Origin: Micractinium sp. NFX-FRZ
Lineage: Eukaryota; Chlorophyta; Trebouxiophyceae; Chlorellales; Chlorellaceae
Assembly (NCBI GenBank): GCA_029339195.1
Contig: JAPTJF010000037.1
Location: 172,344 to 236,343, forward strand
Length of the DNA: 64,000 nt
Reading direction: 5' to 3'
Part shown: one piece after another, positions 1 through 64,000 of the stretch
Layout: every line of letters starts with the position of its first letter
Position numbering within the stretch: position 1 is the stretch's first letter
Made by a program: the position numbers and the translations under genes
The notes under the pieces: generated by a model
What the model was told of the DNA's origin: nothing
The model's database searches: none
What the model saw: only the letters and a program-made list of their open reading frames with translations

Positions 1-1614
1 CCCCCACCTCCCTGCCACCCCCACCTGTGTCCACTATCAGCGCCTCCACGCCGCCTGCATTGGCCACTTGGTCTGCGGTCAGCAGGAAGGCAGCCACCAC
101 CACCACCTGGGCAGGGGAAGGGTGCAGGGTGGGGGAGACAGCGGGTGTGAGGGGTGCAGCAAGCAGGTGCAACATGGACAGCAGCGTTGGACTGCGGTCA
201 GCATCTGGCAGGGGAGGATGCGAGGGAGGGGCGGACAGAGGGGCAGGGGTCATGGGTAGGCAGCAGCCGGCAGAGGCAGATGGGAACAAGAGGAGACTGC
301 CACTGCTGCCGCAAGGGGACCCACCCTCTCCACAACAGCTGCAGCCTCCAGCGCTGCCCCCCAGCACGACCTGCCCCACTCCCCCCCACCCCTCCTCTCC
401 CCGCACCTGCACGATCTGCGAGAGGTCCACCGTCCCCCCAAAGTAGGCCGCTGTCAGCCCCGCCAGGGCGCCCCCCTGCGGCATGGTGTGCGTGCAAGGC
501 ATGCATTCTAGCAATGCTGACAGCAAAGAGCCCCGCCAGGGCGCCCCCCTGCAGCACATTTGCAAGGTTGGCAAGCACCATGGCAGCCTGAGAACATCCT
601 GATGCCAGGGACCAACAAAGGATGGCAGAGGGCAGAACATTTGCACCCCGTTGACCGGAGTCACGGCCGCTGCTTGCAGCACCCACTCTTCTGCCTCCAA
701 CCATGTGTGCCACGCCGCTCGCCGGCTGCTGGCCGCCCCCCCTTCCAGAGTTGGAGCAGTGCCCTGCTATGCACCTGCAGTATGTTGCGCACGCCGCTCA
801 GCGTGCCGTCTGTGGGGCTCAGGAACTGCTCGGGCTGGATCTTGTTCAGCCTGAGCTCCTGGAGGGTGTAGGAGCGCTTGGGGACCTGCAGTGCCATCAG
901 ACGGGAACACGAGGTGCTGAAACGCCTGGTTGGCACACTTACATATACGGCCTGTTCCCCGCCGCACTTCATGTCTTGCTGGCGTCGTTCGCTTCAGCCA
1001 GCACGAACAAGCCTAAATGGCGAGCACAGTGCCCCCACCTGTTGCGCCTTGCCGTACGCCCGCAGTGCCCCCTCCTCTGCCAGCGCCGCTGCCAGGCTGG
1101 TGGCTTGTGCCTCTGCTTGCTGGCCCTCAGCAGCCTGCACGGGGGGTACATGCACGTCATCGGTAAGGTGATTGCAGCGAGCAAGAGAAAGGCAGGCAAG
1201 CTGGCAATGCCTGGGGGCGGCACATGGGCAAGCACGGATGGCTCCCGATTTGGCCAGCAGGGGCGTGGTACGCGAAAACACAGGGGGGCCTCTCACCAGG
1301 AGCCGGTCCAGCTCTTGCAGCCGTTGCCCCAGGCTGCTTGTTGTAGTAGCGCTGCTTCCAGAGGCGGCGTTTCCGCTGCTGCTGCCTTGCTCTGCACGGG
1401 CCATCAACGATGGGCGGCCGCCCTGCGGCTGCCGCTGCTGCCACTGCCGCCGCCGCACCACCGCCACTGCCGCTGCCGCCGACCTGCCGGTGGGCCTCCG
1501 GGACGGCTGCCACGGGCAGGAAAGCCGCAGGCAAACTGACGGAGCGCCCTCCTGAGCAGGGCCTGCGTTTGTGCGGGCGCCAGTCGCGGGCAGGTGTGCG
1601 AGGTGAGCAACCAT
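1..1614 (-). CDS. Plastid M41-like 'stress-regulated' membrane protein, 5' part only
   Basis: Five exons are visible on the minus strand: 1614-1297, 1134-1039, 885-775, 475-407 and 106-25. The last donor lies at 24, so the 3' end is outside the window. All internal junctions keep phase 0. The N-terminus is Ala/Arg/Ser-rich (MVAHLAHLPATGARTNAG...), as in a chloroplast transit peptide. A predicted coiled segment rich in Gln/Ala/Glu follows, then the block KRSYTLQELRLNKI, QFLSPTDGTLSGVRN and LQGGALAGLTAAYF. A hydrophobic segment, VVVVAAFLLTADQVANAGG, precedes EALIVDT. From memory this order matches plant plastid proteins annotated as stress-regulated or FtsH/M41-like (KRSYTLEELRLNGI..LSPVDATLGS..LQLAALLGGF..). 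The HEAGH-type metal site of that family would lie beyond the edge. The start at 1614 is the first ATG of an open exon. The family call is from memory. Confidence 0.55.
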
Positions 1615-2101
1615 TGGGAACGGGCTGCGCGTGTTTCGGATCGCTTCTGTGATAGCTGATCAGTCAAAACTCACCCACAGGTAGCGAAACTGTGCACCTC
1701 AGTCGCAACTTTCCAAGTCCTCGGCCCGCTTCTGCATGGGTGAGCCAGCGAGCAGAAACGATCCGATGGCGCGCTAGCATTTGCACAATCGTCTGTGAGC
1801 GTGGTAGCGGCGTTTCCACAGCAAGTGGGTTGCTCAGCCCCACCCTCGCCGCATTTCCGTCTTGGCACCACCGGCCCCTGCTTGCCAGCGCCTCTTCTAC
1901 GCTTTAGGTGAATCGAGGCCGCTATTTTTACGTAGCGAGAGCACCGGCAGATCTTTCTGCGGCCCACCGCGGCAGTGGCGGCGGCGGCGGCGGCGGCGGC
2001 AGGCAGTAGTGCGGTTGACCCCACGGGCAGGCCTCTTCACGCAGGCACTTTCCTTCGTTCCGGAGTCCCCGGCTGATTGGAGGCTTCAGCAAGGCGACAC
2101 C
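1615..2101. other. Divergent spacer, no gene seen
   Basis: This 487-bp spacer lies between the minus-strand plastid gene and the truncated DRG2 copy. It contains a (GGC)n run near 1977-2000 and an ATTGG (inverse CCAAT) at about 2075. I see no convincing TATA box or reading frame. Similarity to the DRG2 promoter at 9054-9255 is not apparent by eye. Confidence 0.5.
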
Positions 2102-2461
2102 ATGGGCATCCTGGAGAAGATCAAGGATATTGAGCACGAGGTAAGGGGGCTGTGCACCAGCAGATGTGACGGTGGCGCAGTTTGGCGGTGCGGTGCGGAG
2201 TGGGTGGCGGCAGGCATGTCTGTGGGTGCAGCAAGCTACAGGGGTTGCATATAAAGCCAAGGACTACAATGATGCACAGGAGTGCTGGGATTGGAGGGGC
2301 GAGCAGCAGCATGCACTGCAGGTGTGCTAGGCCGCGGCAGGGGCGGCAGGCGGTGCCCGAGCGCCCCGCTCGCTCCCCTGATTGCTCTGTTTCTTCTCCT
2401 GCTTCTTTCTCTTGCTCTACAGATGGGCAGGACACAGAAAAATAAGGCCACCGAGTTGTCA
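2102..2461 (+). pseudogene. Truncated second copy of DRG2 exons 1 and 2
   Basis: Exon-1-like DNA at 2102-2140 encodes [13 protein letters not shown] followed by a GTAAGG donor. Exon-2-like DNA starts at 2423 after CTCTACAG and encodes [11 protein letters not shown]. The same two exons open the intact DRG2 at 9256-9294 and 9475-9516. Exon identity is high but the introns (282 and 180 bp) show no recognisable similarity. Codon by codon, differences before the break are eight synonymous and one conservative (Glu/Asp). After GAG at about 2455 the sequence leaves the family, though that frame stays open to 2902. No GTPase motifs follow. It may be a dead fragment, the head of a chimeric gene, or one side of a rearrangement that displaced a paralogue. 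Confidence 0.7.
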
Positions 2462-3062
2462 CGGCGGGAGTGTGCACTCTCAGCGCGTCCATTCGCGCTG
2501 CTCTCGCTGAACTCAGTTCCCACAGCTGTCCCTCTGAAGTGTTCCTGCTGCCGCACCCTGCCGAGCCCCTCTCCTGCTGCTGCCCCGTGCTCCTGTCATC
2601 CATCTGTTCTATATCAGATACTTGTGCAATTCCCGGCATGCTTACACATGCTCCCCAGCTCAAGCAAAGGTACAAGGCACAGGCATTGTGCTGCCAGGCA
2701 GGCAGGCAGGCATAGCGTTGGGCAGGAGGCGTGCCAGCCAGGCAGTCGGGTGACGATGAAGCAGGATGCATGTGTTTCATTCTTGGAGGCCCACGAGGGG
2801 ATGATGCATGAGGGGTGTTTACAATACAAGATCATGGGATCTGAGGGGCTTGATGGAGTGAGGAAAACATGGTGCATGCTGTGTGATGTGACGATTAGGT
2901 AAATTGCTGGTTGCGGGAAGAAAGAAAGCGTGCGTGCCCGTCTTTGACACGGCTGTGTGGCTTCAGGGAGCCAGCGGGCGCTCCCTCAAGCTCAGGGCGC
3001 CTTAGATGGGCGTACTAGTCGTGGTGCACGCCCAAAGGCGGGCGCCAGCAGCCCAGGATGCC
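2462..3062. other. Downstream spacer, no confident gene
   Basis: This is mostly non-coding sequence between the broken DRG2 copy and the 3' end of the minus-strand SNM1-like gene. The frame opened by the DRG2 fragment continues to a stop at 2902 but shows no recognisable domain. A (GGCAGGCAGGCAGG) run lies at 2696-2712. On the minus strand a TGTAA at 2823-2819 could be the 3' signal of the SNM1-like gene. Confidence 0.4.
2819..2823 (-). terminator. Putative TGTAA poly(A) signal of the SNM1-like gene
   Basis: TGTAAAC reads on the minus strand about 240 bp past the stop at 3063. UGUAA is the usual poly(A) signal in green algae. Assignment rests on position and motif only. Confidence 0.35.
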
Positions 3063-9053: not shown

Positions 9054-9255
9054 TCTGGCGAGCTAAGGATCTCATACAATGCAAGCAGGCCGTGTCCAAG
9101 ATCTTGAGAGCTTGAGAAGACGCGCCGCCTGACGTGGCGCCTCTTCTGTCTTGGCAGCTTCTTGGCAGGTTAGCGGCCCGAAGCCAGATCAATTTCTTCT
9201 CCCCGAGACCACTTGCGCACTTCAAATACCCAATAGCCTCCGCGCAGCCGGCACG
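9054..9255. promoter_or_regulatory. 202-bp shared promoter of the SNM1-like gene and DRG2
   Basis: The two start codons face each other across only 202 bp, so promoter elements and both 5' UTRs must overlap or abut. A CCAAT lies at about 9231-9235, just upstream of DRG2. No TATA box is seen. Confidence 0.5.
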
Positions 9256-12200
9256 ATGGGCATTCTAGACAAAATAAAGGATATAGAGCACGAGGTAAGC
9301 ACAGCGGGGCATAAGTGGTTGTATTGAAAGGTCGGGGACGCGCCGCAGCGGAGTGAGCCACTCCCGTGCCACCGCCGCGTCCTGCCGCCACTGCCGCCGC
9401 TTCCGCAACGCTGCGTCGGCAGGCAGCACACACCGCCCTAACTTGCTTCTCGTTCGGGTGGTCTTGCTCTGCAGATGGGCAGGACACAGAAGAACAAGGC
9501 CACAGAGTTTCACATGGTTTTTTCTGCTGCCGGATTTTTTCTAAAGAAGCTACCCTCTGCGTGCCGTCCTCCTGCATTCCTGCCTCTGTGCTGTGCTGGC
9601 CGCTGGCGAGCCGGCGGCGCTGCCGCCTGCCTGCCTGCCTGCTGCTGCACAGAGTACCACATGGAGAGCAGCCGCAGTCGTTTTCTGCTGCTGCTGGTGT
9701 TGCTGCTTGCTGGCCCGCCTGTGGTGTGATCAAAATCCTTCTCTCTTTCGAATGACTGCAGGGCCAGCTGAAGGCCAAGCTGGCCAAGCTGCGCACACAG
9801 CTGCAGGAGGGCACATCCAAGGTGCGGCGCTGCAGGGCGGTGGGCATGGGTGTACTGGCCGGGCGCCTCTCCTGAAGGAGTGAGCCTGAAGGACCTGGTT
9901 GCTGGGATTGCTGGGGCGGTGGTGACATCAGCTCCAGGCCATGGCGCTCCCCCCCCATGCCTGATCACCTTACCTCCCCTCTGCCCCCCTGCCTGCCCCA
10001 ACAAACAGAGCGGCGGAGCTGGCGACGGGTTTGAGGTGCAGAAGTACGGCGATGGGCGGGTCGCGCTCATCGGCTTCCCCTCGGGTGAGAGCCCCTCGCA
10101 GCGTGACCCTGCAAGGGGGACGGGATGTGGCTGCATCAGCTCGCTGGGCTGGTTCATGCACAGCAGACACTTCTGCGCAGCCTTTTACAGCTGCTGGGTC
10201 ACAAAGTGTTTGCACAGGCTGCCCAAGACTCGCTCCCCAGCTCAAAAGACAGCTATTGCAGTCCAGCCCACCGACCCAGGGCCCGATCTGCACCCAGACT
10301 TGGCCTCTCTTCCCCCTCTCACGCACAGCAAAGTGACCTTTTGCCTCCCCTATGACTGTGCGCAGTGGGCAAGTCCACGCTGCTGACGGAGCTGACGGGC
10401 ACCGACTCGGAGGCGGCGGGGTACGAGTTCACCACGTGAGTGAGGTGCCGGGCAGGGATTGTTACGAGGGCAGAGGACGGGCATCAGGGGCAAGGAAGGC
10501 CCCAACAGCAGGGGCATGGGGCGGCAGAGGCTGGCAGAGGCGGGGGTAGGCCGGGTAGACGGCGGGGTACGAGTTCACCACGTGAGTGCACCGCACGGGG
10601 TCCGGAGGAGGGGCGGGGGCAGCAGCCCTAGTAGGGGCGGGGGAGTCCTAGTAGGGTGAGGCTGGCCTGCTCCCCGGGCCTCATCCGCTTGCCATGTGTG
10701 CTGTGGTCCCATTCCTTTCAACCTCTTCATTCTCTGCTTGCTTCCTTGCAGGCTGACGTGCATCCCCCGGCGTCATCCACCTGCCATGCGTGCTGTGGTC
10801 TCACACCCCGCAATTTCTTCCTTCCCCTCTTGCTTCCTTGCAGGCTGACCTGCATCCCGGGCGTCATCCACTACAACGATGCCAAGATCCAGCTGCTGGA
10901 TCTGCCGGGAATCATTGAGGGGGCAGCAGAGGGCCGAGGTGTGTTGCAGGGAGGGGCAGGGGGCTGGCAAGGGCAGCTGAGGGCGGAGGCCAAGCAGGAT
11001 GTTGGCGCCCGGCACAGCAGGGAGAGGAAATCCAGCAATGGTGGCCTGCGCGCCTGCTTGCAGCGGGCACAGGCACACCCTCCCCAGTCTGCTTAAATGT
11101 GTTTAGTCTAGCCCAAGGTGTTCACAACCCAACCGACACCCATGCCTGCCCTGCAGGCCGCGGTCGCCAGGTCATCGCTGTGTGCAAGAGCGCTGACCTG
11201 CTGCTGATGGTGCTAGATGCTGGGAAGCCGCACTACCACAGGGAGATCCTGACGCGAGAGCTGGAGTCGGTGAGCTCTGGTACTGCAGATGGGATACTCC
11301 AGAGGGCAGGGTGGGAGGCTAAGGGAAGGGGGCGGTACTACTGCCTACTACTATAGGGGAGACTGACGCAAGAGCTGGAGTTGGTGAGCTCTGGTACTGC
11401 AGATGGGGTAATGCAGAGGGCATGGTGAGAGAAGGGGAAGGGGGGCGGCAGTACCACAGCGACACTTTGATGGGAGAGCGCAAGGGGGGGGGGGGGGGTG
11501 GCAGGGGTCGGGAGAGGGAGTTTTAAGGGCCATAAGAGGGCAGGAGAGTCAGGGAGCAGGGCAGGCGGAAGCGGGAGGTGGAGGCGATGGTTGGGCTGCA
11601 AAGTGGGGCTGTGTCTAGGCTGTTTTGGTTCCCAAAATCACCAGCAAGAACACGAGGCCCTGCGCACTGACCGACGCACATGCACCCACGAACGTCACCC
11701 TTGCTGCCCTCTGCAGGTGGGCATGCGCCCTGACCGGTCGCGCCCCCGACATCATGGCACACAACAGACTGCGCTCCATGCACCACACACACTCACTGAC
11801 CCCACATTCAACGCCCCATGCCGCCCTCGGCAGGTGGGCATGCGCCTGAACCGCAAGCCGCCCAACATCACGTACAAGAAGAAGAAGACGGGCGGCATCG
11901 CCATCAACTCCATGCTGCAGCTCACACACCTGGACGAGCGCATGGTGCAGCGCATCCTGCAGGTGCGCTGCGCTGTGCTGTGCATGCTGTGGTTGTGGTG
12001 TTAAGTCGCTGGTGCTATGCTGTGCTGTGTGCGCTGTGGATGTTGTGCCACTGTTGCTGTGTTGTGACATGCCTGCACCTTACAAAAGCTGAGCACGCGC
12101 ATGGTTCAGCTGGCGAGCTGACGTGCCATGCTTTGCACACAGTGCAGATGTGCACGAGACGTGCATGCTGGGCATACCTCGTGCCGCCCGCCCCCCCCGC

Positions 12201-14584
12201 CTCATCCCCACCCCGCATATGTCTGCTCCTCACCCACCCTACATTACAGGAGTACAAGGTGCACAACTGCGACCTGCTGTTCAAGGAGGACTCCACGGTG
12301 GACGACCTGATCGACGTCATCGAGGGCAACCGCCGCTACGTCAAGTGTGAGTGAGCCGGGCACGTCCGAGCCGCCGGCCCTGCTGCTATTGGCTAGGCAG
12401 GGTTGCCGCAGTGCGGGGCTGCATTGCGTGGGCGCCTGGCACGCCTGTGTGAAGCGTGAGTGAGGGGGGGGTGCGCGGGCTGTGCCGCTGGATCCCCTCC
12501 TCTTCCAAGGGCCCACATTCTCAAGTGTGCTTTGTGAACCCCTCTTTCATCCCCACAGGCCTGCACTTATACAACAAGATGGACCTGTGCAGCATGGAGG
12601 AGGTGTGCTCGATTCTTTCCCCCTGTTTCTTGCAGTGATTCACCCCTTTGTTTGGACGCTCCTCTCCCCCCACGCAGGCCTGTACGTGTACAACAAGATG
12701 GACCTGTGCAGCATGGAGGAAGTGGACGAGATTGCGCGGCGGCCCCACTCCATCCCCATCTCCTGCTACCAGAAGCTCAACTTTGACGGCCTGCTGGCGC
12801 GCATCTGGTCCATGATGGTGCGATGGGAACATGGGGGAAGGGCCATACAGGGGGAGGGCCCCGAATGCATATATGTACTGTAATGACGATACATGGGGAT
12901 GAGCGGGGGGGCTGGAAGGGCGATTACGACCTGCTGTGCGCATGTGTGCATGTGTGGGGGGGACGAAAACGTCGGCTGTATGTGCATGCGTGCCCGTGCG
13001 TCTGTGTGTGTGGTGAAGGCCTGGCGGGGCAGCATGGGGCACTCAGGTTGGGAGCCCTCCTCCCTGCCCTCGTGTCTTTCCCACCAAGCTGCACCTCACC
13101 GCCCCCCTGCCGACCTCCCCCTCCTCTGCTCCCCTCCTCTGCTCCCCCGCAGGGCCTGGTGCGTGTGTACACCAAGAAGGTGGGGCACAAGCCCGACTTT
13201 GGGGACCCAGTCGTGCTCAGGTGGGCTGGAGGGGCCTTCGTCTTTGGTTCCCAGGGGTGAAGGGCGTGGGTGCAGAGCAGCCAGTGGTGCTCAGGTGGGC
13301 AGGGAGGCTTTATTGTTCGTGGGGGTTGGGTGGGGGTTATGCGAGATGACTGCCCTTTGCCACCCGTGTTTCGAACCTGCGACGGTGCCCTTCCTGCTCT
13401 GCCACCGCAGTGAGGACCGCGGCGGCACCAGCATGCAGCACTTTTGCGAGATGATCCACAAGAGCTTGGCCAAGGAGTTCCAGTACGCACTCGTGTGGGG
13501 CACCTCCTCCAAGCACATGCCCCAGCGGTGAGCCCCCTGCCTGCCCTTGTTTCACCAGCGTTTGGTGGTGTTCGGCATTGTGAGAGCTGTGCTAGAGAGG
13601 CGCAGAAGCGACCCGCCTCCCGCTCTGCCCGCCCTGCTGCTGCCCCTGTAAGCTGAACCAGTCCGGCCTGTTCTGTGGCCCGCTCTCACCTTGGCTTGGC
13701 TCCCCTGTCCTCAACCCCACGCCCTCGGGCTGTAATCTTCTTCTTCTTCTACTCCCCCCGTCCTTGCAGGTGCGGCCTGAGCCACAAGTTGGAGGACGAG
13801 GATGTTGTGCAGGTGGGGGCCTGCCTGGAGTGCCACTGCTGATGTGGTGTGGTGTGATGTGTGGATGGCAACGTTTTCTGGGTGCCGTTGTGAAATTTCG
13901 CCCTTCTTGTGGTGCTGGCGGGTGCTGCCGGGAGTGCTACTGGTGGTGGCTGGGCAAGCAAATCGAGTATCGACTGGGGGTGTAGAAACGCCCTGACTTT
14001 GCTTGCTCTTCCTCCCTCGTTCCCGCTTGCTTGGTGCGAGTGGCCGTTGCTGTGTCCCCTTGTGTGCCGTGCCGCAGATCGTGAAGAAGAAGATCATTGG
14101 CGGGGAGGAGGCGCGGGGCCGCTTCTCGCAAGTGCCCAAGGAGTATGTGCGCACCGTGGACAGGTGGGCGGGAGGGGTGATAAGGTCACACTGTTGTGTT
14201 GCTGCAGCGCTGTAAAATGATGGAATGCATGGGGCGGGGGTGGCAGGGGAGGGGGCACGGGAGGGGCAGCCCTGCCTGCCTGCCCGCCTGCATGCCTGGG
14301 GGATGCCGAGAGTGGGGCAGGCAGCTGAAGAGACAGCAGGCCTGGGGGTCTCCCGCCCTGGCCTCGTTGTCATCAAGAGGCGTGCTCTGTTGCAGGGGTC
14401 AAACGCTGCTCACATCTACCTGGCGCCTGGACTTGTGCACCTGCCCTGCTACACCTTGGGACGAGATCAAATATCAAAGGTCCCACCTGGCACCAGCACC
14501 CCTGCCTCACACCGGCACGCGATTTGCTGTTGCTTTTGTTGTGTGTTGTGTTGCAGGGTGAAGAAGGCGCCGCTGAAGTCGTGA
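9256..14584 (+). CDS. DRG2: Developmentally regulated GTP-binding protein, DRG2 type
   Basis: Fifteen exons join in frame to 400 residues: 9256-9294, 9475-9516, 9762-9821, 10009-10084, 10366-10435, 10844-10938, 11157-11269, 11834-11962, 12250-12346, 12678-12817, 13153-13220, 13411-13527, 13770-13812, 14078-14163 and 14557-14584. The N-terminal helical part reads [39 protein letters not shown], diagnostic of DRG2. GTPase motifs follow: GFPSVGKSTLL (G1), a G2 region before [19 protein letters not shown] (G3), YNKMD (G4) and SCYQKL (G5). The C-terminal TGS domain has [14 protein letters not shown] and [17 protein letters not shown] GTPases bind a DFRP partner and associate with translating ribosomes. 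Length is slightly above the usual ~365 because of a basic C-terminal extension ending VKKAPLKS. The donor after exon 2 (GTTTTT) is weak. Introns carry at least five exon-edge echoes. Confidence 0.93.
10561..10588 (+). repeat. Echo of DRG2 exon 5 donor junction
   Basis: These 28 bp are identical to 10415-10442, which spans the end of exon 5 (YEFTT) and its GTGAGTG donor. The copy lies 146 bp downstream inside the intron. Confidence 0.9.
10741..10780 (+). repeat. Echo of DRG2 exon 6 acceptor junction
   Basis: CTTCCTTGCAGGCTGAC and the following ~25 bp recur at 10833-10872, where they form the real acceptor and start of exon 6 (LTCIPGVI). Similarity extends upstream as an approximately 92-bp tandem unit. 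Confidence 0.85.
11356..11430 (+). repeat. Echo of DRG2 exon 7 donor junction
   Basis: This repeats the end of exon 7 (LTRELES) plus donor and about 40 bp of intron from 11243-11315, displaced by about 114 bp with few changes. Confidence 0.85.
11707..11756 (+). repeat. Echo of DRG2 exon 8 acceptor junction
   Basis: CAGGTGGGCATGCGCC and flanks precede the real exon 8 acceptor (11833/11834) by about 117 bp, with near-identical sequence over ~25 bp and looser similarity beyond. Confidence 0.8.
12556..12606 (+). repeat. Echo of DRG2 exon 10 acceptor and first codons
   Basis: An acceptor followed by codons for [15 protein letters not shown] lies about 118 bp before the true exon 10 (12678), which encodes [15 protein letters not shown]. 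The decoy contains the G4 NKMD motif. Confidence 0.9.
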
Positions 14585-14760
14585 GGTGGACGCAGGCACG
14601 GCAGGCAGCGCCAGCTCAGCCAGGCCAAGGCAACAGCACAGCTCGGCCAGGCAGGCAGCAGCTGGTAGGCGGGTTGGGCGGCAAACACCTCTTCAGAATG
14701 CATGTTGCGCAGCACACAAACCGCTAGTGCTGCCCTGTTCCTCTGCATGCATCTGCTGGT

Positions 14761-15417: not shown

Positions 15418-18400
15418 CTACATTCCGGCAGACGGGACGCGGGCGATGCGGCCCTGCGCGCGCGGCGCAATCCCAAACTTGCGCCTCACTGCATCAAACA
15501 CTATCAACTCGTCCAGCCCATGGGCGCACGGTTCTAGGTAGGCCAGGGCGGAGAGGGCGGCGGTGGAATGTGCCCGCTGCTCTTCATTGGCCAAAGCCAG
15601 CCAGCTTCCAAGCTCGGTGCTGTGTGTGCCCTCTCCACCGCCCCCGCTGCTGCTGCTGCTGCTGCTGCTGCCGCCGCCCTCGGGCGCCTCGCTGCGCTGC
15701 TGCAGCAGCAGGGCCAGACTGATGGCTGCGCCCGTGGTGGTAACCTCGTGCACGTGCTGCTCAGCTGCCAGGGGGATGCTGCCGGGCCCGCCAGTGGCGG
15801 TACCACTCAGCGGTGCCCCCGGGGCGTACACCGCAGCTTCTGCGGAGCTGCCGCTACTGCCGCTGCTGCTGTTGCTGGTGGAGATGCTGTCACTGCTGCT
15901 GCGACCTGCGCCGGCAGCAGCCGTCACGGGGGCAGGCTGCTGCTGCGCGTGAGCACCGCCGCTCCTGCTGCCGTTGCTACTATGCGCTGCCGGCTGGTGC
16001 TCCACTGCCACTGCAACTGTTTCCCTCACAGCTGCCTCCGCTGCCGCCGCTGCCTCCTCCTCCTCCTGCTGCTCCCGCTGCGCGCGCTGGCTCTCTGCTG
16101 CCAGCATGCGGTGCCACTCCTGCCCCAGCGTCTCGTTGAGGTACTCCACACGCATCCACAGGTACTGCAGGAGGGCAGGGAGAGGTGCACTAAAGTCAGA
16201 TTTCATGAAAGGCACCTGAACAGAAACAGTACTCCACACGCATCCACAGGTACTGCGGGCGGGCAGGGGAGAGATACACTTTGGTCAGACTTTACACAAG
16301 CACCTGAACAGCGTCTGTGTAAAATCCTGCCTCACAGCTTGCCTGCCTTAGCCTGCACCAGCGTGGCTGGCTGGCCAGGGGTCGGTCGCAGCTGCCCTGC
16401 AGCCCCCACCAGACAGCATTGCACACCAAACTTAAACCTGCTCACAACCGGCTCAAACTGGCACCCCACCTGCCCCGTGTCCAGCAGTTCCATCTCGCCA
16501 TCCACTGAGCACCCCCGACAGCGCCTCACCCTGGGCTGCCAATACATCTGACTCTCGCACCAGGGGGGTAGTTTACCCATCCACTACCACCCACGCCACC
16601 TCGCCCCAGGCTGCCAATATACCTTCCTATTCTCAGCGGTCTGCCCGTCTCTCACTCCGCTTCAACCTACTCCCTCCTCAGCTGCCTGCCCGTCACTCCT
16701 CACCTGGACCAGGGTTGCCAGCCGTGGATTGGTCTCCCCATCCACTAGCACCTTGGCCCCCTTCAGGCTCTCAAACCCGTCCTTGCCACCCCGCAGGTAG
16801 GCCTTGGTGGCCACCTGCAGGGGCGGGGGTGAAGCAGAACATGAGGGGGAGTGAGAAGAGCGTGGCAGTGGGTGCGAGAGGTGTGCCAGGTGGCGGCCCG
16901 GTGTGGGGAAGAGGGACGAGAGGCGACGCTTGGGATGGAGCGGAGAAGATGGAGCAAAGAGGAATTGAGACATGCGAGCTGCTGGGCAACGGCAGGTCCA
17001 TTGCACATTCGCCCACCCGCAGCAAGCACGTTCCTTGCAGCGCCACCCAGCGCATGTCGCGGCCCTCCCGTCCACACCACCCTGTGTGCTTCCCCCCCTG
17101 CCCCCTGCCCCTGTAAAGCAACGTGCGAGACGGAACACAGCGCACCTTGAAGCGCCTCCCCAGCTCCAACGGCTCCCCCGCCACCCGCACGCTGCCGGGC
17201 ACCACGCGGCTGCCTGCGGGCTGGTCGGAGTCGTAGGCAAAAGAGATGCCAGAGACCTGCAGGGGAGTCGGGGGGCGAGCAGGGGACGATTGCAGGGTCA
17301 ATAATTATTAGCACGCACATCATTGCCCATCCGCCCGCTCCCCCAAGCAGCCTGCCCGCCTTCTCCAGCTCACGTTGCTGATGTCTCACGCCCTCCCAGG
17401 CCTCTTTTCAAGCCTCGTCTGCGTCTGCCCTCCCCCGCCCACTTGCCCACCCTCCTCCACACACTTGCAAGCCCGCCCTCCCCACCCAACCTGGCCCAAC
17501 CTTCCCCCGAATCGCAGCCCCGCAACCCCACCATCGTCCGCACGGATGCCCCCATCCCACAGCGCTTGCCTGCAGGAACCGCCATTCCAGTTGCTTCTCC
17601 AACAACACCTCGCAACCTGCCCCTCCCCAGCCGCACCCCTCCCCACCCACTTGCTTACCTGCAGGAAGCGCCCCTCCAGCGCGGGCCAGCTGCCCACCCC
17701 CGTCTCCAGCGCCCGCAGGATGTCGGCACCGCTGAGGTCTAGCAGCACCAGCTCGTCGGTGAAGGGCAGCATGCTGCAGTGTGGCGGGTGGGGGGTGGGG
17801 GTTGAGCAACAGGGGAAGCAGTGGGTCCACATTTCATGTGGAAACGAGCAGCACCATCTCGTCGGTGAAGGGCAGCATGCTGCGGTGTGGAGGGTGGTGG
17901 TTGAGCAACAGGGGAAGCCGTGGGTTAACATTGCATGTGGCACACACGGGAAAGGCCAGCTCATCGGTGAAAGGGCAGCCTGTGCTGTGGGCTGGTACTG
18001 GTGGGTGAGGCCAGACAGGGAAGGACACGCGTGCCGGGCCCTGCCGCCCTCTACCCCGCCTGGCTCGGAACTGTGCCTGTGCGTGTGACCTTCTGCCACC
18101 CTCCATCGCCTTCCTTGAGTTCAGGATGTTGTGCTTGTACCTAACCTACTCAACGCCCGCCGGCCCCCGCCCCTCACCTCACAAAGTCGCGCATGATCAG
18201 CTGCCCGGCCGCGTGCACCTGGTCGCTGCGGATGGTGCCGCCGTTGAAGAAGGCGGCGTCCGCGCCCAGGCTGATGCGCATGATGTCGGCAAACAGAGAG
18301 CCGACGTTGGACTCGGAGCGGCGCACGGTGTCAAACCGCGCGTCAAGCGGGGTGTGGGTCCACCCCAGGGGCTCGTCCATCTTAGTGCCTGCGAGCGGGT

Positions 18401-44200: not shown

Positions 44201-45665
44201 GGCAGCATGGCTTGGCGCTGAGGGGGTGCGTGATGGTGCGGGGGCAGCCAACCAGCCAACCAGCCAACCAACCAGCACATCCTCACGCGCGCGCCACCCT
44301 CCCTGCTTCTCCTCTGCAGCTTTGCCGCCGTGGGCGTGCCCCCTGCTGTCATGGGCATCGGCCCCGCCGTGGCCATCCCGGCGGCGGTGGAGATGGCGGG
44401 GCTCAGCCTGGACGACATTGACGTCTTTGAAATCAACGAGGCCTTTGCCTCCCAGGTGGGTGCAGCGCTGGGGAGTCCAGCTGGCAGGGTGGGGCGCTGC
44501 GGGGCGGGGCGGGGCGGGGTCATTGGCGGCGGCCACCCCTCCCCCACACCCTCCCCTCCCTCCACCCTGTGGGTGGCATGTGCAGCATTGCACACCTGGG
44601 CGCCCAGCCACACTGTGCCTTCCCCACCCTTCTCACTCGTTGTACCCCTCCCCTCTGCCTCCCCCTCCTCAGGCCACCTGTTCTGTTGAAAAGCTGGGTG
44701 TGGGCAAAATGGCGGCACCCCGGTTTTTACATCCTTTCCACTTTTCCTGCCTTACCCACCCGGTGCATTTACCCGTCCTACCCCCACCCTCAGGCCACCT
44801 ACTCTGTTGAGAAGCTGGGCCTGGACATGGACAAGGTCAACCCCAATGGAGGCGCCATTGCCCTGGGGCACCCGCTGGGCTGCACCGGCTCGCGCCAGGT
44901 GGGGTGCCGGAGGGGTTGTCAGATGGGAGAGGCTGGATGGCGTGAACCGGGGGGCACCGTTTGGACCCTGGAAGGGGCAGGTGGGGGCTTAGGTGCACGT
45001 CTTGCAAGAGAACGGGGCAGCAGCGCAGCAGTGTGTGCCCCTATTACCCATGTGCCCCTGTCTGTGCACCGCCTGCTGGCCTCCCTGCCGACGCTCCGCC
45101 CGCCCAGCCCCCCACTCGCAGACCCCCGCCCTGCGCTTGCGCGAAACAGCGGCTTTCTGAGTCCAGCCACTTTGCCTGTGGCACCATCTGACCCTGCCCG
45201 TGCTTCCCTCCCCTTGCCCCTGCCCCTTCCGCAGACTGCCACCCTGCTGTACGAGATGCAGCGGCGCGGCAAGGCGGCTCGCTTTGGCGTCGTGTCCATG
45301 TGCATCGGATCGGGTGAGTGCATGGGGGGAGAGAGGGAGGGGCAGGGGGGAGGAGGGCAGTGGAGGGTGTGCACGCTGGCAGCGGCTGCAGGGCGGGCTG
45401 GGTGTCACGTGATGTGGCGTGATGCGGTCGAGGGTGATCAAGATGAAACTTGCAGCCCGCTGCTTCTGCCAGCACTTCTTCTCCTGTCTGCCTGCCATGC
45501 TTGCCCTGACCTCACACTTCCCCACCCGCCCTGTTGTTACTCCGCCCCCCTGCAGGCATGGGTGCCGCTGCGGTGTTTGAGCGGGGCGGCGAGATTGATG
45601 CGCCGCCGCGCCGCGCCGTGAGCAGCCAGCTGGCAGGGCTCAGCCGCGATGCGCAGGTGGTTTAA
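41294..45665 (+). CDS. KAT2: Peroxisomal 3-ketoacyl-CoA thiolase with PTS2
   Basis: Twelve exons join to 463 residues, matching plant glyoxysomal thiolases: 41294-41344, 41456-41686, 42009-42144, 42428-42595, 43039-43091, 43251-43359, 43669-43796, 43940-44025, 44320-44455, 44794-44898, 45235-45313 and 45556-45665. It cleaves 3-ketoacyl-CoA with CoA in the last step of beta-oxidation. Exon 1 alone encodes [17 protein letters not shown], whose RQ-x5-HL is a textbook PTS2. Core motifs are [44 protein letters not shown] (acyl-accepting Cys), [42 protein letters not shown] (catalytic His) and [17 protein letters not shown] (second Cys). An in-frame Met at 41486 could start a form without PTS2. Introns carry several exon-edge echoes. 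Confidence 0.96.
42214..42250 (+). repeat. Echo of thiolase active-site exon donor
   Basis: CCACACCGTCAACCGCCAG plus flank repeats 42117-42150 (end of the VNRQCSSG exon and donor), displaced by 97 bp. The copy's donor GT is mutated to AT. Confidence 0.85.
42571..42900 (+). repeat. Four- to five-copy echo of the 'QDCLLPMG' donor
   Basis: The exon end CAGGACTGCCTGCTGCC|ATGGGTGGG recurs near 42681, 42773 and, decayed, near 42815 and 42890. Spacing is about 109, 92 and shorter. GTTGGTGGGGTG-type intron sequence is shared between copies. Confidence 0.85.
44668..44710 (+). repeat. Echo of thiolase exon 10 acceptor
   Basis: CTCAGGCCACCTGTTCTGTTGAAAAGCTGGG precedes the true acceptor and exon start at 44789 by about 121 bp. 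Confidence 0.85.
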
Positions 45666-45860: not shown

Positions 45861-45891
45861 CCCCCCTTGTCCTCTGTGCTGTGTAAGTTTT

Positions 45892-46376: not shown

Positions 46377-49561
<3,185 letters not shown>

Positions 49562-51803: not shown

Positions 51804-54800
51804 ATGAAGACGGCGGCTCTCCTGCTCCTGGCCTTCCTGGCCTGCGCCAAGGCCGCGGGCGACGACCCCACCGTCTCTCTGCCCGGCGTGACGGACCTGA
51901 GTGAGTGCTCGCAGCGGTCCTGGAATCTAGATCACCTGCGTTCCAGCCTGCAGGCGCTCTCACCCGCCCCGATCGCCTCTTGCTTGCAGCTCCTGACAAC
52001 TACGCCAGCGAGCACACCGGGAAGAGGGCGGCGCTGATCGAGGTAAGCGTGTGGAATGGTGCTGCAGCCTTTGTGTAAGCAGCGTGGGCAGCGGCTTGGT
52101 ACTTTGTCCGCCCGCTCAGCGGCTTCCTTCACGCTCACAGCCCGCCCTGCTGCTCCCCTACCTGCTGCAGTTCTACGCGCCATGTGAGTGGCAGAGGGTG
52201 CCGGTCCGAAGGGCGCCATAGCGGGGAGCAGGGCTCTCCAGAAGCCGCGTGCCATGCACGGGCGGGCGGCAGTCGGCGGGTGCCACCGGGCGTTCATTCA
52301 GCACCCGGCGGCCTCCAGCCGTGCCATATAGCAGTCGCGGAGAGCTCAAGAGGCGAAAGGGAGGGCACCTAGCCAGCAGCCTGCGCCAGCTTTGCCACCT
52401 AGCCAGCTTTGCCCCCTGCCGCCATTTACTTGCCACGAATGTGCCCGCTGCCGCCGCCAGCACCCAACATCAGCCGCCATCCTCCGATGTGTCCTCTGCA
52501 GGGTGCGGCCACTGCAAGCGCCTGGTCCCTGAGTACACCAAGCTTGGGGAGGCCATTGCTGCCGATCCCAAGCTGAAGAACCGTGTGCTGATCGCAAAGG
52601 TGGACGCCGATGCCCACCGCTCCCTGGGTGCGCGGCGTGTTTCCTTTCCTTCATTCTCAACAGATCCGCCTTTGGGGGACAGCAACCTGTGCAGCACATT
52701 GTGTGCGGGGGTGGCGTGTTGTTTATGGTGTGCCTGGCGGCCAGCCTTGTGCCCCACCTTGCGAGCGCCGATAGGACAGCGCCCGCCCGCCTGCCACACC
52801 CAGTGCAGAGCCCTCCAAAGGGCATTGCCCACTGGGTTTCCAGTGCCTCACCAACCCTCTGCCGCGCTCCCCAAACCTCACCGCTTGCAGGCGAGAAGTT
52901 TGGCGTGCGCGGCTTCCCCACCCTCAAGTGGTTCCCCCGCGGCAAGGCCTCCGACCCCGTGGAGTGAGCGCTGCGCTGCGCTGTGCTGTGCTGCGGGTGA
53001 AATGGTGTGCTGTGCTGTGGGTGATATGGTGTGCTGTGCTGCGCTGCGCTTGTCCACCCCGCTGTTGGACACAACCGGCACGCTGTTGACCTTGCACCCG
53101 TACCTACCCGCAGTTCTGCCTTGCAGCTACAACGGCAGCCGCTACGTGGCCGACTTCCTCAAGTCCGCTCTGCTTGCTCTCCGAGACAACCCTCAAGCTG
53201 TTAGTCTTACACTCTTGCCCGTCCTCAACCCTGCAGCTACAACGGCGGCCGCTCCGTGGCCGACTTCCTGAAGTTCATCAACGAGCAGGTGGCAGCAGAC
53301 GCCGGGTTTGCGCGCGTCGACGCCCTGGTGCCGCTGGCACAGAAGTTCCAGGTGGGGCGCGGGAGGGAGACGGGAGCAGTGGGGCTTTGGGTGCTGGGCT
53401 GTATGTGCTAGGGCAGGGTGTGCACGCGTGGGCGCTCTGGTGCCGCTGGCCCAGAAGTTCCAGGTGGGGCGCGGGAGGGAGAGGAGAGCAGTGGGGCTTT
53501 CGGTGCTGGGCTGTATGTGCTGGGGCTGGGTGTGCAGCGAGGGGTTGCGATTACTGGTCCGGATGTGCGTGCGCGATGCAGCTCCAGCCAAGGCGCATGT
53601 GCGCGCGCCGTGGCCTGCTGGGCGTGCGCCACACCAGGCTTCATCCCCTCCGGCCTGCCTACCTGCCCCTGCCTGCCTGCCTGCCCTGCAGGCTGCCGCT
53701 GCTGATGCCAAGGCTGACATTGTGAAGGAGGCGGAGGCAGCTGTGGAGAAGGTGTCCGGTGAGTGGGGTGTGTGGGGTGTGTGGGGGCCCTCACAAGATT
53801 AGGGTCTCCCAAGCGGGGGGAGAGTGGGCGTCAGCGGGCCAGCCAGCCTGAGGGCGGGAGCTGGCGCCAGGGGGAGGGAGGAGGGCCGAAAGCTGCGCCC
53901 ATGCGCTTCGCCACGCTTACCACCGCTGTGCACCTGCCTGCGCCCCCGCCGCCACATCACCAATCCTGTTCCATCTCACCACGCCTGCACCTCCTATCAA
54001 CCTGTGCGCCACAGTGACGTCAAGAGAATGAGGGCTGCCACTGATACCAAACACCCTGCCATCATTCTGGCTGTGCAGCCGACGACAAGCAGCATGCGGG
54101 CCCTGCACCTGCGGTATAAGGAGACCGCCCTGTGCTGCTTCTGCTTGACACATATCCTCCTGGTCCCTCTTGCGTCCCCTTATGTGTGCAGCCGACGACA
54201 AGGAGAACGCGGGCCTGTACTTGCGGTTCATGAAGAAGGCGCTTGAGAAGGGCGAGGCCTACATTGCTGGCGAGCTGGAGCGGCTGACCAAGATGAGCGA
54301 GAAGCCAATGTCGGGTGGGTGGGTGGCTGGCTGGGGTGGCTGCGTGGCTGGGTGCATCACGGGGCAGGGTGGGTGAGGTCTGCGAGGGCTGAAAGGGTGA
54401 CGCTGCCTCGTCCCCACTCTCCGCCGCTCCCCTCCTTGCCTCCTGTGCCTTGCCACCGTGGTGCTTCCGTGCCTGCCTCGCTGCCCCGCCTGCCCTGCCC
54501 AGCACTTCTTCCCAGAGCCGCCAAGCTGGACAATGTGTGTCCCCCGCATGATATGCGTGCTGCGCTCACCGCCGCGCCCGCTGTGCCCGCTGCCCTCCCT
54601 TCCCGACTGCAGCCACCAAGCTGGACGAGGTGTCCCGCAAGATCTCCGTGCTTTCTTCCTTCACGGAGGCACCCGAGGAGGCCAAGGAGGCAGCGCCTGC
54701 CCCTGCCAAGGAGGAGGAGGTGGCAGTGGAGGAGGACGACGAGGATGATGACGAGGAGGAGGAGGCGCAGGCTGGCGGCGATGAGGAGGAGGTGTACGAC

Positions 54801-55331: not shown

Positions 55332-56506
55332 GCGGGGAGCCTCTTGATGGAACCTGTAGCTGCTGGTCGGATGGCCAGACGAGCACAGCTCTTGCATCCA
55401 TGCGTCCACAGGCTCCGAGGGATCCTGTTTGACGCCCTGCAGTGTGCGCCTTCCATGGAGGGTGGGCCGGGCTCAGCCCAGCGCGCGTAACGTGACGTGA
55501 CAAGAATGCGCTGGTGCTGACCAGGCCTTTCCCCTTTGCGGCACACAACGCTGCCAATGGCTGCACTCTTGCAGCGCTTGTGAAAGCTTGTCCCACCAGC
55601 AGCGGTGTGCCTTGGCGGTGCGGCCCTGCATGCTGTGCTGCGCAGCCGCTGTGCATGCTGCAATCTCTCGCCCCCCTCCTCTTCTCACCTACACCTCCAC
55701 GCCCCCACCCGCTGCGTTTTATTTCACATCATCACTGCTCTGCTACCTTTCTGCCGATTCCCAGCTGCCGCGGCTGTTGTAATGGACACACAGCAGGCAC
55801 AGCACGGAGCATTGAACGCAGAGGCAGGCTGCTGGCTGTGGGGGGCAGCCCTGGCTTTTAAGAGCTGGCCTGTTGGCACTGCACAGACGCCTCCTTTCTT
55901 TCTGCACAAGCTGAGCATGCTCTGCACCGGGTTGGGAGAGGGCTGTGTGCCAGGAGCAGAGCAGCAGGCAGCGGCGAGCACCTGCCGGATGTAGTGGGGT
56001 TGCGGGCAGTGGTGCGGCAGCTTGGGTGCATGTGTGTGGTGGAGAGGTGTTGCAGGCATTGCGAGCGGCTACATGGGAGCATGGAAGTGCGAGATGCAAG
56101 GGTCTGCGGTCATACCTAGCGCGGCCTGGCAGCAGCACTAATGCTCGTGGCATGCACTGAAGGCCGCGTGGCCTGCTGTGCACAGCAGGCTGCGCAGCAC
56201 AGGAGGCTGGCAGGCAGAGCATGCCAGCCTCCGTTGCTTGGAGTGGCATTTGTCGGCTGTGCATTTACATTCAAGCCCAGGCATGGGCATGTAAGGGCCT
56301 CCGCAGTACATCGTCCGTCTAGGGTGCCTTCAGTCGGTGACCGCCTGCAGTGCAAAGCGCACATATCGTCCCACGCCACCACTGCAGATTGTAGACTTGC
56401 TCAACCCAAGTGCAGCTCACAGCCTGGCATTTCCAGCCTGGCATTTCCACACAGGGGCAGGTGCTGCATTTCCAAATTTAATTTAATTTATTTCATGTCA
56501 TGCAAC
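55332..56506. other. Spacer between PDI and ABCG gene
   Basis: PDI 3' UTR with TGTAATG at 55778 (447 bp past the stop), then non-coding sequence. At 56473-56495 an AT-rich AATTTAATTTAATTTATTT run precedes the ABCG TATA box. No gene is seen. Confidence 0.4.
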
Positions 56507-56516
56507 TATATAAATA
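56507..56516 (+). promoter_or_regulatory. TATA box of the ABCG gene
   Basis: TATATAAATA is the best TATA match near any gene start in the window. It lies 197 bp upstream of the ABCG start codon and follows an AT-rich run, so transcription would begin near 56540. Confidence 0.55.
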
Positions 56517-56683
56517 GCCCCAAAGCTGCCTCCAAGAGTGCTCCTGCCTGCTACTTGGCAGCCACATGTCATGGGCTGGTCATGGCCTGCTACCCCCTTG
56601 CTACCCACCCAGCGACCAGTGCTACCCACCCAGCGACCTTGTGCTCACCTTAAACTGCCCCAACATCGTATAGCTCTTCAACC

Positions 56684-56716
56684 ATGCCCAAGCGTCAACA
56701 GACACTGCAACTATGA
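56684..56716 (+). promoter_or_regulatory. uORF overlapping the ABCG start codon
   Basis: ATG at 56684 opens a ten-codon frame (MPKRQQTLQL) whose TGA (56714-56716) overlaps the main ATG (56713-56715) as ATGA. If transcribed it would place a terminating ribosome on the main start, a termination-reinitiation layout. Confidence 0.5.
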
Positions 56717-62700: not shown

Positions 62701-63249
62701 GCCCCTCAACTCATTTCTTCCATGCCCTCCCCCCAGTGATGGACAACGAGTTCTCCAACGTCACCTTCTACACCAAGGGCGGCGAGGCGGTGCCCGGCAG
62801 CATGGTCTTCAACAACGTCGAGACGCCGCTGGCGGGGGTGAGCGCCGTCAGCGCGTGCTTGCTTTCAGGAGAGAGAGCTTGCCGGGTTGGCTAGGGGGTG
62901 TCACGGGGCGCCCTCTCTCCGGAACAAGCTGCGCTGGGGCGGCGCCGCCTGGGGTGAGGCTGGGCTGTTGGGAAGCGGCCCCTGGGCGGCATGCTCCCGC
63001 ATTTCTCGTCTGGTCCCTGGTGCCTGGCTCCCCTCCTTGGCTGCTCTCCGAAGAGTCTGTACCCACGCACCTGTCTGGCTGCTTTCCTCACCTCCCGCTG
63101 TGTCCATCCATCCCCGCCTGTGGCCCGCGCAGGTCAACAACGGCCTCTCCATCGCCGCCAACCTGTGCGTCCTCCTCGGCATCACTCTGGCCGCACGCGC
63201 CCTCTGCTTCCTCCTGCTGCTGGGCATGGTCAAGACCAAGCGGCTGTGA
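56713..63249 (+). CDS. ABC transporter G-family half-transporter
   Basis: Nineteen exons join in frame to 614 residues, the usual size of ABCG/WBC half-transporters (NBD then TMD). Exons include 56713-56856, 57062-57121, 57273-57393, 57774-57895, 58277-58364, 58699-58755, 58976-59043, 59341-59389, 59591-59688, 59825-59902, 60195-60326, 60721-60836, 61125-61207, 61432-61493, 61696-61926, 62274-62336, 62544-62598, 62737-62837 and 63133-63249. NBD motifs: VIMGSSGAGKTTL (Walker A), ISGGQRRRVS (signature), RVLFLDEPTSGLDS (Walker B/D-loop) and TTIHQPNSYI (H-loop). TMD motifs: LRMWWRNPAMLLSE, RAASLWFAMAVLSFTP, ETQQGMYNVTAWF (with RE upstream), ILTFVLLFLLSFSGFLVSDVP and a final hydrophobic helix before KTKRL. 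The protein dimerises and exports lipids or other hydrophobic compounds. The exon 10 donor reads GCAAGC, a GC-AG intron. Confidence 0.94.
57902..58008 (+). repeat. Tandem 56-bp duplication just after ABCG exon 4
   Basis: GGGCCGCACACGGGGGCGGG with about 30 bp more recurs at 57958 as GGGCTGCACACGGAGGGCGGG. The unit begins seven bases inside the intron. Confidence 0.85.
58761..58815 (+). repeat. Short tandem CTGCTGACCTGGCA repeat
   Basis: Four imperfect units of about 15 bp start at the donor side of the intron following the Walker B exon. Confidence 0.85.
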
Positions 63250-64000
63250 GGGGCAGCGGGCGCGGCGGGGCCACAACACGCCGTGCGCCACTCCAGCGCT
63301 GCCTGCACGCTGCGCCACCGTGACACTCCCGGTGACATGCTGTGTCGGTGCGAGAATTTTTTGGGGGCACCGAGTCTGCCCCAAGGTAGCCTCACCTTGA
63401 GTTAGTGCACCCAGCAACCGGCCCCATCCTCGAGAAGCGCTGGAGGAGCCCTCTTGACCTGGCTTGGCGGCACGCCTCTCTGCGGGCTGACCTGGACCTG
63501 GACCCCCTCCTGCTGAGCCACGGAGTGCCCGGGCCGGTTGACCGCTTATGAGACCAGTAAGCGTTTAGCCCGGGCACACAGCTCCCATGATCCATACCAC
63601 ATCTCAGCTGCCATCTCACGTAGAAGGAGTGACATTCACTGCTATCCTCCTGATCCCGCGTCGCTCCCACACGCTCATCTGGGGCGTAGGCGTGCATCAG
63701 CTTTGGCTTCTCATTTCATTCCGATCTCAGTTGCCTCTTTGACCTCCTGAATATCATCTGACGCCTATCTCTGGTGCAATCTCACGGTCACTACCACAGT
63801 TTACCCAAACATACAGATGCACGCAGCAGAGGAGAGCATGCGCTGTCGACAGCGCACTGCAGCGTGGAGGCGGCGGGACATGCACCCAGCGTCGGCTCCC
63901 CTGCCGGGCAATTCTGCAGCATATATCCCGCACAAGCACCGTACTGCTCTTGTCCGCCTGCGCTGTGGCAACCACTGGCTTGCTGAGCACACCTCCCGTT
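63250..64000. other. Downstream flank, no gene seen
   Basis: This holds the ABCG 3' UTR and spacer. No TGTAA was found close to the stop, and no frame shows family features on either strand. Base composition falls slightly after 63540. Confidence 0.4.

Follow-up and report, generated by a model that had tools for sequence, protein, structure and literature searches.

Copies of exon edges inside introns of Micractinium sp. NFX-FRZ and the possible growth of introns from their ends

The introns of the green alga Micractinium sp. NFX-FRZ often contain a copy of one of their own bordering exon edges together with its splice site, which we call an echo. In a sample of 314 kb, 74 echoes are spread over 71 of the 429 introns, about 1 in 6. 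Of 401 donors tested, 39 have their exon edge and splice site repeated within their own intron, as do 35 of 410 acceptors; the null expectation is 0.06–0.07%. The first-pass annotation of the window (the whole stretch of DNA under analysis, 64 kb) had proposed that many introns are affected, and the sample bears this out, with echoes in direct orientation and far above the null. We think it probable, with some reserve, that echoes arise when segments of about 110 bp across an exon-intron boundary are duplicated locally and repeatedly, with the copy on the same side of the intron, and that introns grow from their ends in this way.

The assembly comprises 838 contigs of a 66-Mb genome. The sample was made up of the window and 25 fixed stretches on contigs 1–20. 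Gene models were ab initio and self-trained; some genes were missed and 39% of the sample was classed as intergenic. Junction tests used 401 donors and 410 acceptors from the 429 introns, short queries and targets being excluded. Alignments were scored +1 for a match, -2 for a mismatch and -4 for opening a gap, and the 99% and 99.9% null quantiles of the junction score were 11 and 13. A score of at least 14 defined an echo. The strong set holds 53 of the 74; the other 21 scored below 16 or had a match that stopped short of the junction. Low-complexity repeats were removed by a filter in the repeat, echo-search and step analyses.

Echoes in the window

Pairs of original and copy had been listed for the window from the start. 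When these were re-aligned with 60-bp probes, 16 of 17 proved to be genuine direct repeats scoring at least 14 over 23–57 bp, and in a separate alignment the match was up to 92 bp long. The pair 60321/60407 is not established; its 12-bp match scores 12, between the two null quantiles. The weakest accepted pair is 54611/54514, with a score of 14. The claim that the copies sit at exon-intron junctions holds for most accepted pairs, in which the original coincides with the edge of a predicted exon and the copy falls within the predicted intron next to it, but the match of 17752/17960 ends 3 bp before the junction.

On the forward strand, several echoes belong to an open reading frame that we take to be that of a DRG-type GTPase. 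The gene finder called no exon at 10415, 10833 or 11243 and only part of one at 11824, so these exon edges rest on the reading frame. A donor edge at 10414–10442 has its echo at 10560–10588 (step 146 bp, 29 of 29 bases identical), and the acceptor edge at 10829–10871 is echoed at 10737–10780 within a 92-bp tandem array of 2.3 copies (10659–10871). Next come a donor edge at 11241–11286, echoed at 11357–11400 (score 33), and an acceptor edge at 11815–11846, echoed at 11698–11729 (step 117 bp, score 23). Further along the same strand, an acceptor edge that starts at 12675 has an echo starting at 12556 (12556–12724; step 119 bp) with 43 identical bases in an exon part of 47 bp; the intron concerned is single copy in the genome.

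The forward-strand echoes in a thiolase gene lie at junctions backed by protein alignment. One donor edge (42116–42149) is echoed at 42214–42247, 98 bp away, where the GT of the echo has been lost. Behind another donor edge, ending at 42595, there are four successive echoes at +110, +201, +237 and +323 (42571–42919). An acceptor edge at 44788–44819 is echoed at 44667–44698 (step 121 bp). The remaining forward-strand pairs are an acceptor edge at 53232–53274 with its echo at 53122–53164 (step 110 bp), in which 53127–53162 was predicted as an exon; a donor edge at 53301–53377 with its echo at 53413–53489, forming a 112-bp tandem unit with matching intron flank; an acceptor edge at 54185–54227 with its echo at 54072–54115 (step 113 bp, score 24); and a weak pair, an acceptor edge at 54611–54633 and its echo at 54516–54538 (step 95 bp, score 14, or 17 in another search).

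On the reverse strand, exon 407–475 has an acceptor edge at 456–483 that is echoed at 529–556 over 20 exon and 8 intron bases (step 73 bp, score 25). The acceptor edge at 16141–16180 and its echo at 16229–16268 belong to an 88-bp tandem unit (16141–16311) in which 16238–16252 was predicted as an exon. An acceptor edge at 17741–17791 is followed by an array of echoes at about one and two steps, at 17847–17897 and 17956–17979 (scores 42 and 16), and a donor edge at 18894–18950 matches its echo at 18792–18848 in 51 of 57 bases, including 30 intron bases (step 102 bp). The window thus contains complete tandem units of 88, 92 and 112 bp. The short predicted exons inside the copies of 16141/16229 and 53233/53123 are probably echoes mistaken by the gene finder.

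The window also holds echoes beyond those listed. These are the array behind 42596 and the pair 13207/13281 on the forward strand, a donor edge at 13207–13226 echoed at 13281–13300 (step 74 bp, score 17) in a 190-bp intron. Weaker unlisted echoes occur in introns 17257–17658 and 47039–47565, the latter a donor echo on the reverse strand (step 162 bp, score 16).

Position, spacing and decay across the sample

The claim that the duplications are centred on junctions was upheld by a comparison of positions with 40-bp probes. Probes on the exon side of the junction found a copy at 29 of 386 donors and 24 of 392 acceptors, and probes spanning the junction at 31 of 397 and 32 of 399. On the intron side the counts were 18 of 389 donors and 9 of 389 acceptors. 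Duplications away from junctions are also present, and are several times rarer: 27 of 1,084 probes in the intron interior, 2 of 307 and 3 of 325 in exon 40–80 bp from the junction, and 1 of 1,252 exon probes more than 60 bp from it. No inverted copies of exon edges were found in their own introns (0 of 401 donors, 0 of 410 acceptors). Predicted stops and starts have echoes too, at 2 of 51 and 1 of 48 respectively, which is what one would expect were every duplication across a coding-sequence edge tolerated.

Echoes had at first been interpreted as what is left of intron gain in which exon segments containing AG|GT are duplicated in tandem, a mechanism established elsewhere (PMC3443670). In the geometry that we derived from this mechanism, the end of the upstream exon is copied next to the acceptor and the start of the downstream exon next to the donor. 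Such gain would leave direct repeats that carry splice sites within and next to introns, but the placement of the copies is wrong. Copies at the opposite end were found in only 2 introns of 408 and 1 of 414, all of them scoring below 16. In a separate search all 33 of 33 events had echo and original on one side of the intron, and the other intron of the exon held a copy of the edge in 0 of 353 and 0 of 352 cases. We therefore abandon this interpretation as very unlikely.

A preferred step of about 100 bp, also suggested early on, was confirmed: among the 53 strong echoes, 47 are no more than 162 bp from the original, at a mean of 110 bp (SD 19), and 45 of the 53 lie 73–137 bp away. Beyond 162 bp, the remaining steps are 203–282 bp. 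Nine repeats that are wholly intronic, in introns without a listed echo, have steps of 25–93 bp (Mann-Whitney P = 5e-6 against the echo steps). The matched exon part is mostly 10–54 bp, the remainder of a duplicated unit would be intron, and the match usually runs 5–9 bp into the intron with sharp outer borders. Both the narrow step and the limit of about 54 bp on the exon part are unexplained by random duplication and tolerance.

Introns with echoes are longer, with a median of 354 bp versus 235.5 bp (a difference of about 118 bp), part of which is expected anyway because longer introns have more room for an echo. In a stricter set of 41 introns the median is 360 bp, closer to the base value plus 110 bp (354.5) than to the base value for introns of at least 150 bp plus 36 bp (309). 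The stricter set has no echo among 122 introns shorter than 200 bp; a wider search finds one, in the 190-bp intron 13221–13410. Because echoes are same-side and echo introns are longer, the pattern points to growth of existing introns and not to their birth.

How do the copies age? An exon-only search gave 60 matches, and mismatches were counted in the 43 that lie within 3 bp of the junction, the other 17 being left out. There were 83 mismatches, 37 synonymous and 46 non-synonymous. The synonymous share of 0.446 is close to the 0.43 predicted for a neutral echo and a constrained exon, and the mismatches agree with that model. Transitions account for 44 of the 83, and 6 of 7 gaps shift the frame. 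An assembly artefact, such as merged haplotypes or false duplication at read scale, might be suspected from a step of short-read length and from the 838 contigs. We judge it improbable, since the non-synonymous mismatches, the frame-shifting gaps and the share of transitions are unlike a functional second haplotype, and arrays contain copies of unequal divergence. The merging of haplotypes was rejected on the same counts, as such copies would differ mainly at synonymous sites.

Echoes retain much of their splice signal. The GT is intact in 17 of 21 and the AG in 18 of 22, and the pyrimidine tract at echo acceptors is 0.79, compared with 0.77 at real acceptors and 0.56 in intron interiors. This retained context is what one would look for if echoes were functional alternative splice sites or exons under selection, but the scores of echo sites fall below those of real ones (4.0 versus 7.6 for acceptors, 4.1 versus 6.4 for donors) and their mismatches look neutral. 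Steps are evenly distributed modulo 3 (16, 17 and 20), and use of the echo would run into a stop in 31 of 53 cases (control 45%). A role as alternative exons was rejected for want of a frame signal in step or reading frame, and selection for splicing strikes us as highly improbable. The proposal that the process is active or recent was strengthened: copies range in age from identical to decayed, and since echoes are junction-centred, dense, direct and of spread ages, with a step near 110 bp, the process is recent or continuing. The original breakpoints of echoes are blurred by decay.

Flank divergence and the manner of copying

The intron flanks of echo and original were compared in 52 events from a slightly different detection routine than that behind the strong set; the simulations used the same 52 events. 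Flanks match clearly (z >3) in 14 of the 52; a separate run of 53 events with a different null gave 17. Some further events show gapped homology. Because of these, whole-unit duplication very probably accounts for at least some events. Matching flanks have 0.03–0.27 substitutions, about twice the divergence of the exon copy. No flank homology (z <1.5) was found in 27 of the 52 events, including 9 of 12 with exon identity of at least 0.97, and 8-mers are shared between unmatched flanks in 9 of 27, near the null of 26%.

Simulated neutral tandem duplication gives z >3 in 90% or 73–93% of events versus 27% observed, and in 50–67% when the indel rate is raised in the intron alone. We therefore rejected simple neutral decay of complete tandem units: none of five indel settings yielded the observed flank divergence, and neither did the intron-only indels. 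An intron evolving 5 times faster brings the figure to 32%, though such a rate has no independent support. This leaves two readings: introns turn over at about 5 times the rate seen in the exon copy, or the exon edge is copied on its own.

Copying of the second kind would carry only the exon edge and splice consensus, about 25–45 bp, either by gene conversion onto an ancient echo with diverged flanks or by templated repair using the splice consensus as microhomology. The exon copies in the 27 events without matching flanks are as similar as elsewhere, matches end at the short intronic reach and sharp borders given above, a 36-bp identical copy has unrelated, non-repetitive flanks, and the neutral simulations fail. 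Acceptor echoes without flank homology still lie in acceptor-like sequence (CT 0.73 versus 0.57, P = 1e-5, n = 17), so a short copy into a random place in the intron was rejected for acceptors, though not for donors. Against separate copying of the exon edge stand the clear or gapped flank homology of other events, donor flanks of the unmatched class that resemble intron interior (P = 0.17, n = 10), and the exon-derived parts, in which echo-echo divergence (0.166) is about twice real-echo divergence (0.076), as plain decay predicts. We regard it as possible but rather doubtful. A broader form of the idea, to which we give similarly tentative credence, is that junction-directed copying with a step of about 110 bp repeatedly places a copy of the exon edge, with its splice site, inside the intron, through duplication guided by RNA, a spliceosome footprint or strand-asymmetric G- or C-rich intron ends, or through conversion that refreshes old echoes, introns then growing in rings from both ends.

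An introner or transposon inserted next to the junction and flanked by a long target-site duplication would account for unrelated flanks between direct repeats of an exon edge. We find such an insertion scarcely credible. All 3 echo introns searched, from the 71, are single copy in the genome, any other match being only to their own exon edge. The stretches that separate junction and echo show no clear likeness to one another, with best scores up to 28.5 versus 28 when shuffled and means of 18.2 versus 16.7. A mobile origin was rejected on these two grounds.

Under the duplication of whole boundary segments that we favour, a direct-orientation duplication of about 110 bp would span an exon-intron boundary. 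One copy would retain the working splice site and frame while the other would fall within the intron. Such a duplication would be tolerated, at the cost of an intron about 110 bp longer, because the intronic copy is spliced out. Repeated events at one boundary would drive older copies inward, so that one intron could hold several echoes; in arrays the nearest echo is best preserved in 6 of 10, the order is opposite in 3 of 10, and there is a tie in 1 of 10. Free of constraint, the intronic copy would decay, yet its likeness to the original would outlast that of its intron flanks, in part because the exon it pairs with is constrained and in part because the intron seems to turn over fast. We infer the mechanism of duplication, this inward conveyor, the fast turnover and any reason for the step from the patterns described.

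Known systems and significance

Tandem duplication in plants through adjacent-nick repair or patch-mediated break repair has reportedly been described by Schiml (2016) and by Vaughn and Bennetzen (2014). Like echoes, the products are direct repeats, some tens to hundreds of bases long, that involve no mobile element. We know of no tie between such repair and splice junctions. Internal gene duplication is said to have been treated by Gao and Lynch (2009). It resembles echoes, according to PMC3443670, in being local, direct duplication within genes, at times across splice sites. Unlike it, echoes are junction-centred, lie on the intron side with a step of about 110 bp, affect 71 of 429 introns and often lack flank homology.

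Intron gain by tandem genomic duplication, the subject of PMC3443670, PMC2891723 and PMC4974935, likewise duplicates a segment with splice-site sequence; there an exonic duplication creates an intron, whereas echoes lengthen an existing one and the copy is same-side. Introners, presented in PMC9860276, are similar in changing intron content on a large scale in protist genomes, but no repeated element appeared in the three introns searched here and each echo copies its own exon edge. In symmetrical stwintrons (PMC8469720), splice elements are duplicated within one intervening sequence as well; echoes differ in carrying exon sequence and are known here from sequence, not from splicing. A literature search recognised no description of same-side junction echoes with a fixed step, which is weak evidence of absence given that subscription journals were mostly outside its scope.

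For annotation the echoes carry a warning, as the gene finder appears to have called at least two of those in the window as exons. The source of intron sequence and length has long been a question, since introns tend to decay before their origin can be read. In this alga, the marks in 71 of 429 introns may be read as steps of intron growth; extrapolated by length alone, there would be about 15,000 such introns in the 66-Mb genome. Each echo combines a clock, in the form of a constrained exon and its unconstrained copy, with a position and a splice site, so that one could measure how fast introns grow, which of two duplicated splice sites is chosen, and the apparent limit of about 54 bp on exon-like sequence within introns.

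Copies of exon edges at splice junctions

The window (64 kb, G+C 64.5%, no N) comes from a genome of 66 Mb in 838 contigs, and was analysed together with 25 further stretches of 10 kb, 314 kb in total. Gene models built ab initio over this sample with a self-trained two-strand hidden Markov model gave 497 exons and 429 complete introns (median 254 bp), with a donor consensus of about MAG|GTGAG and an acceptor consensus of a pyrimidine tract followed by GCAG|G. Intron ends in the sample are G+T-rich after donors, dropping from about 0.61 to 0.53, and C+T-rich before acceptors, dropping from 0.76 to 0.51. Of 12 proteins related to a predicted 91-residue protein, the one from Monoraphidium neglectum has 53% identity over 99%, and three closer ones have 77–79% identity over 67–75%. 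Values published for M. neglectum are similar to those here, 65% G+C and a mean intron length of 302 bp (PMC5966456), which makes a green alga resembling the Selenastraceae the likely source.

The window encodes a thiolase and a protein-disulfide-isomerase-like protein. Three others are putatively a DRG-type GTPase, a coproporphyrinogen oxidase and an ABCG-type transporter, named by sequence resemblance only. The 12 predicted thiolase exons align almost without gaps to residues 33–460 of Arabidopsis 3-ketoacyl-CoA thiolase 2, which supports their junctions. Three of these junctions have echoes, slightly decayed copies of the exon edge and splice site inside the adjoining intron.

When all 17 original/copy pairs listed by the first-pass annotation were realigned, 16 stood as genuine copies; for 60321/60407 the match was of 12 bp only. 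The accepted pairs differ, some being whole tandem units (periods 88, 92 and 112) and others an exon edge with splice consensus only. Across the sample, the exon edge plus 6 bp of intron was compared with its own intron interior. At a score of 14 or more, echoes were found at 39/401 donors and 35/410 acceptors, 74 echoes in 71 of the 429 introns, against 0.06–0.07% with introns of other loci as control. No inverted copies of the exon edge were found in its own intron (0/401 donors, 0/410 acceptors).

Are such copies truly concentrated at junctions, as had been claimed? Probes of 40 bp bear this out. Matches (donors, then acceptors) were found for 31/397 and 32/399 junction-spanning, 29/386 and 24/392 exon-side, and 18/389 and 9/389 intron-side probes, and for 27/1,084 at four intron-interior positions, where local repeats thus occur about one-third as often as at junctions. 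Slower divergence of exon-intron than of intron-intron pairs is expected to account for some of this gap, about 1.6-fold as calculated from the divergence clock. Exon probes 40–80 bp from the junction matched at 2/307 and 3/325, those at six overlapping deeper positions at 1/1,252, and exon edges against the intron on the exon's other side at 0/353 and 0/352.

Complex local direct repeats in the first 264 kb comprised 94 pairs at 40–300 bp, 5 at 300–600 and 4 at 600–3000. Other sampled loci contain an exact tandem duplication of 42 bp within a stretch annotated as intergenic (L020:21-62) and a coding tandem array of 33-bp period within a predicted exon (L005:5894-6107). At L012:8488-8518 the end of a coding sequence and its stop codon are copied 87 bp on, in a presumed 3' untranslated region (30/31 identical), in a form resembling the exon-edge echoes.

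In the isomerase gene, we infer that the predicted exon at 53127–53162 is itself an echo mistaken by the gene model, so that echo counts are, if anything, low. The gene finder missed the first exons of the putative DRG-type GTPase gene (9200–11850), where all four exon edges listed by the first-pass annotation have echoes; echo-rich genes may therefore be under-annotated.

Spacing and decay

The proposed preferred step of about 100 bp holds: 47 of 53 strong echoes lie within 162 bp of the original (mean 110, SD 19), 45 of them at 73–137 bp, and the remaining six are at 203–282 bp. The step shows no difference between donors and acceptors (P 0.85). Nine repeats within introns that lack a listed echo have steps of 25–93 (P 5e-6 against echoes). 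Median intron length is 354 bp with an echo versus 235.5 bp without; in a stricter set echoes occur in 0/122 introns below 200 bp versus 7/16 of at least 500 bp, and the wider set adds one in a 190-bp intron. This difference is not proof of growth, since longer introns give more room for echoes. One donor edge in thiolase intron 42596–43038 has four successive echoes. Among ten multi-echo arrays the nearest echo is best preserved in six, with the order reversed at L004, L016 and L019 and a tie at L025.

Decay was counted over 1,201 exon-derived sites, from 43 echoes that align right up to the junction. The 83 mismatches comprise 37 synonymous, 46 non-synonymous and no stop, a synonymous share of 0.446 against 0.43 predicted for a neutral echo of an exon changing only synonymously; each class amounts to roughly 0.055 changes per site. 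Of seven gaps, six are frame-shifting, and the strong echoes' steps are evenly distributed modulo 3. Use of the echo would lead to an in-frame stop in 31/53 (control 45%). Splice dinucleotides are kept in 17/21 (GT) and 18/22 (AG), and pyrimidine content is 0.79 in acceptor echoes, 0.77 in real acceptors and 0.56 in intron interiors. Echoes behave as unused DNA that was formerly a splice site or was copied along with one.

Frequently missing flank homology

Had a whole unit of about 110 bp been duplicated, the intron part would be expected to match as well. Clear homology between the intron flanks of echo and original (match strength z >3) was found in 14/52 events, with substitutions of 0.03–0.27 (mean about 0.15), some twice the exon-copy divergence. 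None (z <1.5) was found in 27/52; of the 12 events whose exon parts are at least 0.97 identical, 9 belong to this group. Homology at 42145 and at sampled loci L009 and L002:444 is diverged and heavily gapped. Simulated neutral tandem duplications run through identical detection reached z >3 in 90% (73–93% at other settings), in 50–67% when only intron indels were inflated, and in 32% with the intron five times faster. Within arrays, where both members of a neighbouring echo pair are intronic, divergence is 0.166 for exon-derived and 0.222 for intron-derived sequence; gap columns number 6 and 178, respectively, the echo search itself disfavouring gaps. Either the turnover of intron sequence is unusually rapid here, or the exon part has been refreshed or copied alone.

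Origin and tolerance of the echoes

Tandem duplication of AG|GT segments is described as a mechanism of intron gain (PMC3443670, PMC2891723), and had been proposed as the source of the echoes. It would put exon copies at the new intron's opposite end; they were found at only 2/408 and 1/414, and we rejected it.

The simplest reason for the placement would be tolerance: a duplication within an exon would break the protein, and one across an exon edge would be spliced out. Echoes at 2/51 predicted stops and 1/48 predicted starts, small numbers at ab initio ends, point toward tolerance as well. By itself it explains neither the narrow step nor the exon part, which ends near 54 bp with a single exception of 66. 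For these we infer that introns can hold only a limited amount of exon-like sequence and that competing splice sites must be a minimum distance apart. Searches of a limited literature collection found no earlier description of the density, preferred step and intron-side placement. The echoes are genuine and represent one form of internal duplication, an event type already known; they are present throughout the sample and have one unexplained feature.
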